NCBI GenBank assembly: GCA_021789095.1
Contig: JAJYJX010000081.1
Span: 1 to 10,808 of the forward strand
DNA: 10,808 nucleotides
From: a bacterium
GTDB lineage: Bacteria > JAMCPX01
Reading direction: 5' to 3'
Part shown: in pieces, positions 4,557-7,982 of the stretch
Numbering within the stretch: the stretch's first letter is position 1
Layout of the letters: each line of letters starts with the position of its first letter
Translations under genes and position numbers: made by a program
Notes under the pieces: generated by a model
Seen by the model: only the letters and a program-made list of their open reading frames with translations
Told to the model about the DNA's origin: nothing
Databases searched by the model: none

Positions 4557-5617
4557 GGCTCTTCGCGCCAGTACAGGAGCGAAAACGTATGGCTTGCCCT
4601 GTTCCTGTAATACACAGCCCTTATGATATACACTACCCCGTTCTCAATGATGCCTATGCCGTCAACCGAAAAATAATCGCTCTTTACATCTATGTATCCG
4701 TTAACAGACTGGACATCCGTGTTGTTGAGATCTATGCCTATCTTTGTCAGTTCATTCGTAAAATCCCCGATAGACATGAAAGGCTTCTCCTGCCTTGCTG
4801 TTATGATATCCTGTACCTGCGAATCATCCAGATTGTACATAGCCTTTAACAGTATCGGCGGGGCTGTGTTTACATTGATTTTGAACGGTGAAGCGGGGTT
4901 GTAGTACTTCGGGAATACGGTGAGGACGGGGCTGTCCATCGCATCGGGCGGCGGCGCCAGCGCCTGGCCATTCGCGTCTGTCCTGCCCATCAGTATGTTG
5001 AATGTCTTATTGTCAATGCCTTTTATCATCTTTAATTCCGTTATCGAATCCAGGGGAGCATCCTTTGCCCTGTACGGCGGGTTCAGTCCTGAATAAAAAT
5101 CACTCTCAGCGCCGTTAGGCCTCGGCAATTCATCAGAGTCTATCCAGTCCTCCAGTGCGTCTACGACAGACGGATCGAGTTTCAGATCTTCAAACAACCT
5201 TCTGCATATGCCGTCAAGCGTGCGGTTTGCCGTTATCGTATCCGAGCCTATCAGGGCGTTCACGTCAAGCTTGCCAGCCTCATCGCTTATCAGGCCGCGC
5301 ATAATGCCTATATTCTGGTCTTTGACCGTTACAGGCAGGGGGAAGTTGGAGATCTGCGACCAGAGCTGCGCGTCTTGGTTAAGCTCGCCGGAAACCTGGT
5401 AATCGGCGTTCGGGCTGATAACGAGGTCGGACAGCAGTATTGCCTTTTGTGTCTCTATGGCTGCAACTGCAATGCGGCTTGCCTGCATGCTGTCCCTCAT
5501 GCGCATTGTTATGTCTATATTCACCCTTGTTGTATAAGCAAACTCGACAATAACGGCTGCAAGTATGGCTATGATCATCAGTACTATGATCAGCGCCTGT
5601 CCGCGTTCCTGCCTCAT
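4544..5617 (-). CDS. gspK: Type II secretion system minor pseudopilin GspK
   Basis: Large minor pseudopilin, 357 residues from this start, expected to cap the GspH-I-J-K tip of the periplasmic pseudopilus. The leader is short (MRQERG) and is cut after Gly7, ahead of the hydrophobic helix QALIIVLMIIAILAAVIVEF. Position +5 of the mature protein is Ile instead of Glu, as is usual for GspK. SDEAGKLDVNALIGSD, DWIDSDELPRPNGAESDFY and INVNTAPPILL are typical of the GspK periplasmic domain and its helix-hairpin-helix-like insert. The ATG at 5617 overlaps the gspJ TGA as ATGA, and GAGGA lies seven bases upstream. A GTG two codons earlier (5623) is a less likely start. It is the last gene of the operon, and no gspL or gspM follows. 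Confidence 0.93.
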   Translation of the reverse strand: MRQERGQALIIVLMIIAILAAVIVEFAYTTRVNIDITMRMRDSMQASRIAVAAIETQKAILLSDLVISPNADYQVSGELNQDAQLWSQISNFPLPVTVKDQNIGIMRGLISDEAGKLDVNALIGSDTITANRTLDGICRRLFEDLKLDPSVVDALEDWIDSDELPRPNGAESDFYSGLNPPYRAKDAPLDSITELKMIKGIDNKTFNILMGRTDANGQALAPPPDAMDSPVLTVFPKYYNPASPFKINVNTAPPILLKAMYNLDDSQVQDIITARQEKPFMSIGDFTNELTKIGIDLNNTDVQSVNGYIDVKSDYFSVDGIGIIENGVVYIIRAVYYRNRASHTFSLLYWREEPFNN

Positions 5618-6390
5618 TCCCACATCCTCAGCCTTACAATTTCCCTGAACGGTACATTTACCCCGTTTTCATCGGTCAATACAAGCTGTATCAATACAGC
5701 ATACGGCAGGTGGTTCTGCCCCTGAATCCTTGTGTCCCATTGATCAAACCACTGCTTTGTCCCTGCATCAAAATAATATATCTCAAAGCTCTGGACAGAC
5801 TTTGTTATGATAAATCCGGGGCCCTGTGTCAGGGGGTCTGCTGTAAAAAACGGCTGCTCCCTGTGAATCAGGTAAACGGCATCCTTGTTTTCATTTAACT
5901 GGGTATCATAACCTATTGCGGCATAGTCCGAGCCCTGTACCTCATTACCGACGGGTATGTTGACATGCGCCATGGTCGTAAAAAACAGCTTGTCCATGGG
6001 GTTGTCGTTCCACACATCCTTCACGCCTACGAAGTATGTGTACGGACTTATTGTACCTGCCGGCGTTACATCGAGATATGCGGAAGCCAGTTCTCTCTTT
6101 AAATGGGACATGATCTGGTTGCCAATCTGGTAGATCTCGTTTCGGTGCTCTACATAGGATTTTGTTCGGAACGCCGTGAAGAACGACATGTACACAAAAG
6201 TCATTATCACGGCAAGAATGGATATAGAGATCAGTATTTCGAGCAGGGTAAACCCCGTTAGAAAGGTTGGGGCCTTCCTCTGTACTGTTTCTTCTGGGAA
6301 TTCAGAATTTTCGATAATATCCCTCTTATACCTGTCTGTACTTTCTAACGGGGTGAATCCTCTGTTCTTTACCAACCGGTGCAACTTCAT
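5614..6390 (-). CDS. gspJ: Type II secretion system minor pseudopilin GspJ with extended leader
   Basis: Minor pseudopilin, 258 residues, longer than the roughly 190-230 usual for the family, mostly because of the leader. The real prepilin peptidase site is FLTGFTLLEIL, with cleavage after Gly46 and Glu51 at +5, followed by a hydrophobic helix (about 47-70). The periplasmic domain contains WDTRIQGQNHLPYAVLIQLV, typical of GspJ. Residues 11-16 (GFTPLE) mimic the cleavage motif but are followed by a polar stretch, so they cannot form a pilin helix. The codons for this mimic and for the real site form the inverted repeat listed separately. The ATG at 6390 lies six bases after the gspI stop. The Shine-Dalgarno is weak (ATAAG), which suggests translational coupling. 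No ATG, GTG or TTG between the two motifs offers a shorter start. Confidence 0.9.
   Translation of the reverse strand: MKLHRLVKNRGFTPLESTDRYKRDIIENSEFPEETVQRKAPTFLTGFTLLEILISISILAVIMTFVYMSFFTAFRTKSYVEHRNEIYQIGNQIMSHLKRELASAYLDVTPAGTISPYTYFVGVKDVWNDNPMDKLFFTTMAHVNIPVGNEVQGSDYAAIGYDTQLNENKDAVYLIHREQPFFTADPLTQGPGFIITKSVQSFEIYYFDAGTKQWFDQWDTRIQGQNHLPYAVLIQLVLTDENGVNVPFREIVRLRMWE
6246..6360 (-). repeat. In-frame palindromic leader element of gspJ
   Basis: Plus-strand CCCCGTTAGAAAG (6253-6265) and CTTTCTAACGGGG (6341-6353) are perfect 13-bp inverted arms separated by 75 nt. Flanking bases 6246-6252 and 6354-6360 pair only partly. In the gene, the upstream arm encodes GFTPLES and the downstream arm encodes FLTGFT, the real pilin cleavage site. 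The 99-nt core is three bases longer than its gspG and gspH counterparts, so the frame is kept. The interior shares ACAGAC, AGxTATAA and GGAAGG with the gspH element. The inner CCxxGA/TCxxGG stem of the other two is not present here. A small TTCTG/CAGAA hairpin (6-nt loop) occurs instead. Confidence 0.8.
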
Positions 6391-6396
6391 TGCATC

Positions 6397-6846
6397 TTAT
6401 TTCGTTGACGGCGACGCTGTTGTACCCTGTACAGCGCTGACCGATACCGGCAGGTAATCTATAATCGTGAGCTTTTCCGGATTGTTATGAAACTTCCAGG
6501 TAACTTCGATCTCGAGTACGCCTGGCAGCTTAAACGGAAGCTCTATAGGAAGGGAGAGCTCGTTGGCTGTTGTTGTCTCTACCTTGAATGAAGGGAACTT
6601 GTCTTCAAAGGATTTGATGGGCGGGTTGAAATCCCCGAAGAACCCCTTAATCTCCTCTTCCCCGAGCCTGTAATCGGCAAGCATCATGGCAACACTCGTG
6701 TCGTTTATATAGTTCGAAGCATCGATATTCCTGTTCTCAAGCGTCTGTATCGAGATCAGCCCTACTGCAAGTATCGCCACAGCGACAAGCAGTTCAAGCA
6801 GGGAAAAACCCTGCTCATGATTTTGGCGGCTCAAAGTATCTGTCAT
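6397..6846 (-). CDS. gspI: Type II secretion system minor pseudopilin GspI
   Basis: Minor pseudopilin of 149 residues. GspI is expected to start the tip complex with GspJ and GspK. It has a conventional short leader: EQGFSLLELL places cleavage after Gly13 and Glu18 at +5, followed by the hydrophobic helix LLVAVAILAVGLISIQTLE. The Asn-rich segment after the helix (ENRNIDASNYINDTSVAMMLAD) is typical of GspI, where a conserved region reads like xxxNxxxLxxxxxAxxLA. It is the only one of the four GFTL-type pseudopilins in this operon without the extended palindromic leader. The ATG at 6846 overlaps the end of gspH by 32 nt. AGGTCG nearby gives only a weak ribosome binding site. Confidence 0.92.
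   Translation of the reverse strand: MTDTLSRQNHEQGFSLLELLVAVAILAVGLISIQTLENRNIDASNYINDTSVAMMLADYRLGEEEIKGFFGDFNPPIKSFEDKFPSFKVETTTANELSLPIELPFKLPGVLEIEVTWKFHNNPEKLTIIDYLPVSVSAVQGTTASPSTK
6797..6815. repeat. Palindrome centred on the GFSL codons of gspI
   Basis: Plus-strand AGCAGGG (6797-6803) and CCCTGCT (6809-6815) are perfect 7-bp arms around AAAAA. In gspI this covers the codons for QGFSLL, the prepilin peptidase site, and it ends on the last base of the gspH stop codon. It resembles the shorter self-complementary GGGTTTACCC in the matching codons of gspG, gspH and gspJ. Confidence 0.6.
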
Positions 6847-7456
6847 ATATGGCGACCTGGCCTGTAAACGGGTTTACTTCAAGTGAGTAAACATCTTTTT
6901 TGTCATCCGTTATGTGGATGATGGTATAAGGCAGATATCCCTGCGGATAAAACTGAATGGCCACATCTGTTGCATCCCTGCTTACCACGGTTGTGTCCAC
7001 AATAATATCCTCGAAACTAACTCCTTCCGGCAGCCTTTCTGGTTTTCCGAGGACATCGCTGTCGTACTGCCATTCGCATGTGTTCGTCTCAAGTGTAGGC
7101 GTACACGTCTCGACCCAGTATTCATTTTTCTTCAGATCAAACTTTATGCGGTAGTACGTTGTCCTGGAAAAAACCGCCTTGGAGTAAACATACCGGATGG
7201 TCGAGGAGAGCCGCTGTACAGAGGTCTTTAGCTCCACACCTGTAAGGTCCATTAATCTCGGAGTTATAAGCCCAAGGATAACAACGATGATGAACAGGAC
7301 TACCGTCAGCTCTATAAGGGTAAACCCCGTAAGAAGCTTGTTTGCATTAGCCCTTCCGTGATTGTTTACACAATATGACCGCGTTATACTGTCACGGTCT
7401 GTTGCCGGAGCTTCTATCGGGATAAACCCCTCTCTCTTACTGGCATTCATTCGCAT
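6815..7456 (-). CDS. gspH: Type II secretion system minor pseudopilin GspH with extended leader
   Basis: Minor pseudopilin, about 213 residues from the ATG at 7456. Another ATG two codons later, at 7450, is equally possible. An in-frame ATG at 7510 lies deep inside gspG and is unlikely. The real cleavage site is LLTGFTLIEL, after Gly44 with Glu49 at +5, then a hydrophobic helix (about 45-68). The C-terminal domain (VSRDATDVAIQFYPQGYLPY and SLEVNPFTGQVAIYD) is a GspH/FimT-type beta fold. Two Cys lie at about 115-130 (CTPTLETNTC), a possible disulfide. Residues 10-15 (GFIPIE) mimic the cleavage motif. With the real site they are encoded by the arms of the inverted repeat listed separately. The start overlaps the gspG end by about 20 nt, so translation is probably coupled. 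Confidence 0.9.
   Translation of the reverse strand: MRMNASKREGFIPIEAPATDRDSITRSYCVNNHGRANANKLLTGFTLIELTVVLFIIVVILGLITPRLMDLTGVELKTSVQRLSSTIRYVYSKAVFSRTTYYRIKFDLKKNEYWVETCTPTLETNTCEWQYDSDVLGKPERLPEGVSFEDIIVDTTVVSRDATDVAIQFYPQGYLPYTIIHITDDKKDVYSLEVNPFTGQVAIYDRYFEPPKS
7318..7430 (-). repeat. In-frame palindromic leader element of gspH
   Basis: Plus-strand CCCGTAAGAAGCT (7326-7338) and AGCTTCTATCGGG (7409-7421) are complementary at 11 of 13 positions and are separated by 70 nt. An inner stem, CCGTGA (7356-7361) with TCACGG (7392-7397), encloses a 30-nt loop. In the gene, the upstream arm encodes GFIPIEA and the downstream arm KLLTGFT. The 96-nt core aligns without gaps to the gspG element at roughly 60% identity by eye. 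Both mismatched bases of the outer arm fall on a codon that would be TAA if pairing were perfect. Confidence 0.8.
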
Positions 7457-7982
7457 CAAGGCTCGATATGTCTTTGTCCCTGCCCTCACCGCCTGGTTTG
7501 CCGTCGGCACCGTAAGACATAATCACATAATCGCTGCCGTTTGGAGCCGGGCTCATGTAAGCATAATCATTTCCCCATGGGTCTTTTGGTATGTGCCCGC
7601 CTTCTATGTACCCACCCTGCTTCCAGCAGCAAGGTATCTGGCCTGTTGTAGGCTGCTCAATCAGTGATTTCAGCCCCTGCTCTGTTGTAGGATACGCATG
7701 ATTGTCAAGATAATAAAGTTTAAGCGCTGATTCAAGCGAGTTTATGTCGGCACATGCCTTGACCCTGTTTGCCTGCTCTTTCCTCGGTATTACATTAACT
7801 GCAACGAGCGTGGCAAGCAGGCCTATTATAAGGACCACCACCATTATCTCTATCAGGGTAAACCCCGTTTGAAGCCTGCTTGTAATACCCTTTCCACGAC
7901 TTTCTACGCGATATGGTTGTTCTCTGTCTTCGTGGTCTATTGATATAACTTCCAACGGGATAAATCCATTCTCTCTTGGCAT
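7437..7982 (-). CDS. gspG: Type II secretion system major pseudopilin GspG with extended leader
   Basis: Major pseudopilin subunit, 181 residues as translated and about 141 mature. The real cleavage site is LQTGFTLIEIMVVV, after Gly40 with Glu45 at +5. The conserved GspG body follows: RKEQANRVKACADINSLESA, LDNHAYPTTEQGL, PKDPWGNDYAY, and the C-terminal calcium-loop region SYGADGKPGGEGRDKDI. Adjacent cysteines occur in IPCCWKQ. The leader is about 40 residues, far longer than usual. It opens with NGFIPLE (residues 5-11), a mimic of the cleavage motif. AGGAGG placed seven bases before the ATG at 7982 leaves little doubt that the long leader is translated, and there is no other start codon before the real site. 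This is the strongest ribosome binding site in the operon, which fits the major subunit. Confidence 0.95.
   Translation of the reverse strand: MPRENGFIPLEVISIDHEDREQPYRVESRGKGITSRLQTGFTLIEIMVVVLIIGLLATLVAVNVIPRKEQANRVKACADINSLESALKLYYLDNHAYPTTEQGLKSLIEQPTTGQIPCCWKQGGYIEGGHIPKDPWGNDYAYMSPAPNGSDYVIMSYGADGKPGGEGRDKDISSLDANECQ
7856..7967 (-). repeat. In-frame palindromic leader element of gspG
   Basis: Plus-strand CCCGTTTGAAG (7864-7874) and CTTCCAACGGG (7949-7959) are complementary at 10 of 11 positions and are separated by 74 nt. An inner stem, CCACGA (7894-7899) with TCGTGG (7930-7935), encloses a 30-nt loop. In the gene, the upstream arm encodes GFIPLEV and the downstream arm LQTGFT. The 96-nt core has the same length and stem spacing as that of gspH. 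Confidence 0.8.

Follow-up and report, generated by a model that had tools for sequence, protein, structure and literature searches.

Long pseudopilin leaders very probably hold copies of a MITE-like palindromic element that recurs across bacterial phyla

Several kinds of short palindromic sequence multiply in bacterial genomes. Miniature inverted-repeat transposable elements (MITEs) are short and multicopy, have terminal inverted repeats and a target-site duplication, and lack a transposase gene; the class includes documented in-frame fusions (PMC10969869). Rickettsia palindromic elements (RPEs) are palindromes of about 100-150 nt that lie in frame in protein genes, while the repetitive extragenic palindromic sequences and the mosaic elements built from them (REP/REPIN) are high-copy inverted-repeat hairpins probably mobilised in trans by REP-associated tyrosine transposases (RAYTs). 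IS1380/piggyBac-like transposons have CCC at their ends and a 4-bp duplication of the T..A type. The DNA analysed here, a stretch of 10,808 nt from a bacterium of the GTDB lineage JAMCPX01 (contig JAJYJX010000081.1, assembly GCA_021789095.1; “the window”), contains a minus-strand type II secretion operon in which gspG, gspH and gspJ have long leaders and gspI does not. Each long leader very probably contains a single MITE-like element, a transposable sequence that is non-autonomous and duplicates a 4-bp TNNA target. The element is not pilin-specific, and it shares with each of the systems above the features just listed, the comparison with RPEs being by description only.

As originally predicted, all three leaders run from GF(I/T)P(L/I)E to the usual GFTL(I/L)E, namely MPRENGFIPLE...LQTGFTLIE in gspG, ...KREGFIPIE...LLTGFTLIE in gspH and MKLHRLVKNRGFTPLES...FLTGFTLLE in gspJ. 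Both motifs fall within the arms of an inverted repeat, ~70-75 nt apart. The arms are genuine: those at 6245-6265/6341-6361 agree at 86% over 21 nt and those at 7318-7338/7409-7429 at 76% over 21 nt, with the inner 13 positions perfectly paired in gspJ and more decay in gspG and gspH. Every leader holds a single element of 98-101 nt, CCCCGTTAGAA...TTCTAACGGGG (CCCC to GGGG, 101 nt in gspJ and 98 nt in both gspH and gspG), which sits in the Gly-Phe-Thr codons and is flanked by a 4-bp TTYA/TTTA duplication (Table 1). Together with the duplication the lengths are 105, 102 and 102 nt, respectively, each divisible by three, so the reading frame is kept. The gspI site reads GGG TTT TTC CCT (GFSL) and thus has no TTTA in the corresponding position to serve as a target; the element is absent there, as had been noted from the window.

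The sites are empty in relatives. Same-family genomes whose gspF is 73-86% identical to that of the window have short gspG leaders, MQRDKGFTLIE (G006), MNKQKGFTLIE (G002), MMQRQKGFTLIE (G005) and MKKETGFTLIE (G003), and their gspG genes align to that of the window with a clean 102-nt gap. The gspH site is empty in three relatives (G002, G003 and G005) and the gspJ site in one (G003). In G001, G004 and G008, gspG has an insertion of equal length in which the arms have decayed and the peptide motif is kept.

Copies are abundant in the genome of the window (G000). The gspJ core matches dozens of sites, often as arm pairs 70-110 nt apart, and the arm CTAACGGGGTTTACC has 86 matches when 2 mismatches are tolerated, compared with 2 for the reversed pattern used as a control, which puts the arms far above chance. 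About 78 distinct short elements were delimited, mostly intergenic, with arms of at least 10 nt and lengths between CCCC and GGGG of 31-124 nt (peak at 101). Of these, 21 have a common interior (sub-family A, gspJ copy included), most others sharing the ends only. Identical 4-bp flanks occur in 40 of the 78 copies, with 18.9 expected. Among the 112 nonredundant external copies in the matches listed, 77 have identical 4-bp TNNA flanks compared with 14.6 expected from re-pairing of flanks; this excess shows target duplication and hence transposition. The search pattern did not require the T at −4 (103/112) or the A at +4 (105/112). The same sequence would also result if only 2 bp were duplicated within a T..A target that is itself fixed. 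Among the smallest G000 copies, L014, L016, L019 and L027 (~31-40 nt) consist of little beyond two ends back to back, and some of them keep an intact TTTA/TTTA duplication. Empty sites, duplications and genome-wide copies thus bear out the predicted in-frame palindromic insertion family; the further idea of a small family limited to pseudopilins does not hold, since the family is high-copy, mostly intergenic and present in many phyla.

Table 1. Elements, target-site duplications and pseudopilin genes in the window
Feature	Coordinates	Strand	Basis
Palindromic insertion element, gspJ leader, sub-family A, 101 nt, CCCCGTTAGAAAGT...CCTTTCTAACGGGG	6253..6353	-	Arms; covariance model; empty site in G003
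5' target-site duplication copy, gspJ, TTCA (gene strand), Phe-Thr codons of original GFT	6354..6357	-	Sequence
3' target-site duplication copy, gspJ, TTTA (gene strand), Phe-Thr codons of working GFTL site	6249..6252	-	Sequence
Palindromic insertion element, gspH leader, 98 nt, TCCCGATAGAAGCT...AGCTTCTTACGGGG	7325..7422	-	Arms; empty sites in G002, G003, G005
5' target-site duplication copy TTTA, gspH	7423..7426	-	Sequence
3' target-site duplication copy TTTA, gspH	7321..7324	-	Sequence
Palindromic insertion element, gspG leader, 98 nt, TCCCGTTGGAAGTT...GGCTTCAAACGGGG	7863..7960	-	Arms; clean 102-nt gap relative to G002, G003, G005, G006
5' target-site duplication copy TTTA, gspG	7961..7964	-	Sequence
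3' target-site duplication copy TTTA, gspG	7859..7862	-	Sequence
gspJ-like pseudopilin, extended leader	5614..6390	-	PF07963 match
gspI-like pseudopilin without element (GFSLLE; site without TTTA)	6397..6846	-	Sequence
gspH-like pseudopilin, extended leader	6815..7510	-	Sequence
gspG-like major pseudopilin, extended leader	7437..7982	-	Sequence

Exact arm pairs number 8 to 28 in each of five genomes of the same bacterial family (G000, G001, G003, G004 and G008), while none was found in G002, G006 and G007; presence is thus patchy even among congeneric genomes. A scan of species genomes across phyla with the pattern ACCCCNTTAGAAN{50,80}TTCTAANGGGGT gave at least 114 stretches, and at least nine further phyla or candidate phyla, as named by record titles, share these ends. 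The hosts among the matches listed include Patescibacteria, Deltaproteobacteria, Nitrospirae, Nitrospinota, Omnitrophota, Planctomycetota, Elusimicrobia, KSB1, Cloacimonadota and Stahlbacteria; Rickettsiales are not among them. An exact pair was present in 7 of ~377 sampled unrelated genomes (control, 0), which makes the family patchy on this scale as well, and the deltaproteobacterial genome G065 is very dense, with 187 exact arms (control, 0). Viral contigs gave no matches to the element, a sub-family A copy had no match in plasmids and phages, no Rfam family matched the elements, and a search of the literature covered, on the arm sequences and the peptide motifs, returned no relevant description; the family is apparently undescribed. 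In G001 and its relatives, a sub-family CTCAGCAGATGATAATTTG... (L103, L104, L113 and L183) lies within longer conserved flanks that are repeated in both orientations, often at contig ends, and it may ride within a larger repeat.

With a covariance model built on 10 sub-family A copies, relatives from other phyla score 40-72 bits, the gspJ copy scores 38 bits and ends-only copies reach ~18-33 bits. One sub-family is homologous across phyla, with covarying hairpins: over 23 aligned copies, pairing in the outer arms and two inner hairpins stands at 89.7%, and two-sided changes number 31, compared with 3-9 in slid controls. The hairpins are therefore maintained, whether selection acts on folded DNA or RNA or one arm is corrected against the other.

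Insertion falls exactly at GF-T in five of the eight pilin-type genes of the window genome. Two of the five, on contig C139 (L302/L305/L307, 15971-17508), have variant inner arms, CCCCGTTACATCT...AGATGTAACGGGG, and constitute a second sub-family that shares only CCCCGTTA with the others. Equivalent pilin insertions occur in Omnitrophota (L185 and L198) and Deltaproteobacteria (L186). The L198 leader (Omnitrophota UBA12090; 4-88, 539-623), GFTPLE...LTGFTPSEI...LTGFTLIE, appears to reflect two successive insertions, the duplicated and rebuilt target having been hit again.

Gene starts are the other recurrent setting. Among 113 external copies in the matches listed, 59 are intergenic, 24 include the start codon of the neighboring gene, 17 are no more than 50 codons from a start and 6 are mid-gene, the remainder being near stops. 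The frame is kept in 24 of the 26 copies inside open reading frames (ORFs), compared with about 15 of the 59 intergenic ones. Overlap with an ATG-NA start was seen for 20 copies, while ~12 would be expected from the background of such sites. Excising the element and its duplication gives recognizable starts, MKVRASAKKMCKKCK for bL36 (L131) and MKFILGKKIEMSQIFDEKG for uL3 (L160), and restores those of valyl-tRNA synthetase (L203) and thymidylate synthase (L205), the protein names being our own reading. In such interrupted genes the element supplies the new start codon, often an internal ATG with an N-terminus ending in SNGV, alternatively a GTG out of GGGG+TGAA. In gene-start copies of Patescibacteria (L125, L119, L132, L158, L188, L200, L203, L205 and L215), the new start codon is often preceded by a third arm, internal and CTAACGGGG-like, which could be a nested insertion or a leader with alternative pairing.

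These observations suggest how the leaders arose. The ends are inverted repeats, CCCCGTTA(GAA)...(TTC)TAACGGGG, and the element inserts at a 4-bp TNNA, preferably within GTNNAC, with duplication of the 4 bp. The prepilin codons GGG TTT ACC (Gly-Phe-Thr) include G-TTTA-C, a preferred target, at the very point where a prepilin leader is cut. A transposase acting in trans would move the element through a staggered cut at TNNA. With insertion TTTA is duplicated, and the terminal GGGG of the element becomes a new glycine codon before the duplicated Phe-Thr, by which the G|FTLxE cleavage motif is rebuilt downstream. The former motif stays upstream as GF(T/I)PLE, the leader gaining 34-35 residues, and prepilin peptidase would probably cut at the downstream site. 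Because the peptidase removes the leader, in-frame insertions there would be nearly neutral and persist; a similar tolerance would account for many gene-start copies.

Could the long leader instead be a vertically inherited, functional part of the pseudopilins, such as a targeting or regulatory peptide, whose arms are a by-product of the doubled peptidase motif? All copies have an open frame, and the gspG extension is common to G000, G001, G004 and G008 with the peptide outlasting the arms. Yet loss of arms with retention of the peptide, which had been named as evidence against a palindromic element, was seen in gspG of G001, G004 and G008 only and is expected of an old insertion. The orthologue comparison likewise left the element standing, as relatives lack the long leader: four have the short leader and the clean gap, and dozens of non-pilin arm copies with 4-bp duplications lie in the same genome. 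Intergenic copies and empty sites largely refute inheritance, which we regard as extremely improbable. Scarcely better is the chance that gene conversion or duplication among pilin genes, rather than transposition, spread the copies. The interiors of gspG and gspH are 57% identical without gaps (z 5.5), which upholds part of the prediction that all three interiors can be aligned, while the gspJ interior has no detectable similarity to either (z about −0.5 to −0.9). The gspJ copy belongs instead to the largest intergenic sub-family of the genome (blastn E 2e-5; covariance model, E 2e-5), the pilins are distinct genes in their bodies, and among relatives the sites are empty gene by gene. Spread into pseudopilin genes by insertion elements is therefore retained from the prediction, but the three copies are not simply one element that moved between pilin genes, since that of gspJ derives from a genome-wide sub-family.

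As for the agent of movement, mobilization of REP/REPIN-type repeats on single-stranded DNA by RAYT (Y1_Tnp, HUH) transposases would fit the size, the palindromic ends, the covarying hairpins and the presence of Y1_Tnp genes in 19 of the 22 genomes searched (3 genes in the window genome). We nevertheless consider it quite unlikely. The variable 4-bp duplications match left and right, whereas HUH transposition is not known to make such target duplications, and the tetranucleotide-linked insertion without duplication of REP/REPIN was not seen. No arms, and hence no flanking RAYT, were found within ~1.5 kb of any inspected Y1_Tnp gene, three element-bearing genomes (two of the candidate phyla radiation type) have no detected Y1_Tnp, and G067 has 8 such genes but only 4 exact arms. 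Derivation from an IS1380/piggyBac-like DDE transposon with a TTAA-type duplication and CCC ends, its autonomous copies lost or rare, is less remote, though still improbable. Relative G002 has an IS1380-like (PF13701) copy in the same style (L261; contig C29, 1089-2708), apparently an intact insertion sequence, with perfect CCCGAAAAATGCAT ends and a TTAA duplication, and IS1380-style ends presumably resemble those of piggyBac. However, the inner ends of L261 differ from those of the element, no IS1380-like element with matching ends was found in the same genome, and no DDE or Y1 transposase found has CCCCGTTAGAA ends. PF13701 is missing from most element-rich genomes, including G000, G004, G064 and G065, and PF01609 from G065 and G060; in general, the DDE families tested are missing from several element-rich genomes. 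The attC sites of integrons were set aside because the copies are dispersed, not in cassette arrays.

Several points weigh against the reading of the leaders as MITE-like insertions. Among the loci retrieved, inverted arms that are separated by 0.18-5 kb and share a duplication, as expected of an autonomous copy, enclose unrelated genes only, and the inspected PF13701, PF01797, PF01609 and PF00665 genes have no credible element arms beside them, in a search that was not exhaustive. No similarity to the main sub-family is detectable in the gspG and gspH interiors, which leaves ends, position and duplication as the only links of these copies to it. In gspJ the two copies of the duplication differ at one position (TTCA/TTTA). 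G000, G001, G004 and G008 have the gspG insertion but G006 lacks it, which requires independent insertion or precise loss. The frame count within ORFs is partly conditioned on the ORFs being open. In the element-rich genomes G064 and G065, arms that look unpaired almost always have a degenerate counterpart no more than ~180 nt away, and no autonomous copy was found there.

Compared with MITEs, no autonomous insertion sequence sharing the ends was found among the loci and transposase genes inspected; the ends are conserved over many phyla with mostly unrelated interiors, one sub-family has covarying internal hairpins, and insertion recurs at pilin cleavage sites and ATG starts. Unlike RPEs, the elements span more than one genus, are mostly intergenic, have a clear 4-bp target duplication and concentrate, within proteins, in cleavable leaders and first codons. 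They differ from REP/REPIN in the TNNA duplication and in having no RAYT gene beside inspected copies, and from IS1380/piggyBac-like transposons in their inner ends and in the absence of the enzyme from most element-rich genomes tested. Its behavior is that of a MITE and, within pilins, that of an RPE, and we assign the element to no named family, no parent element having been found. As a tentative and rather doubtful extension, the family might consist of short non-autonomous palindromes only, shared by many phyla and moved by a stand-alone enzyme whose own family has so far had no link to transposition, with internal hairpins under selection and ends that rebuild the site they enter, giving G|FT in prepilins and GTG-AA at starts that read ATG-AA.

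The finding raises the question of which enzyme moves these ends over many phyla without a visible autonomous copy. It also presents a transposable element that repeatedly alters proteins where change is cheap, in cleavable leaders and first codons, including those of ribosomal proteins and tRNA synthetases in the small genomes of Patescibacteria. Odd N-termini in environmental protein sets (GFTPLE...LTGFTLIE and NPVRN...SNGV) are probably explained by this element, and they can mislead the annotation of start sites and signal peptides.
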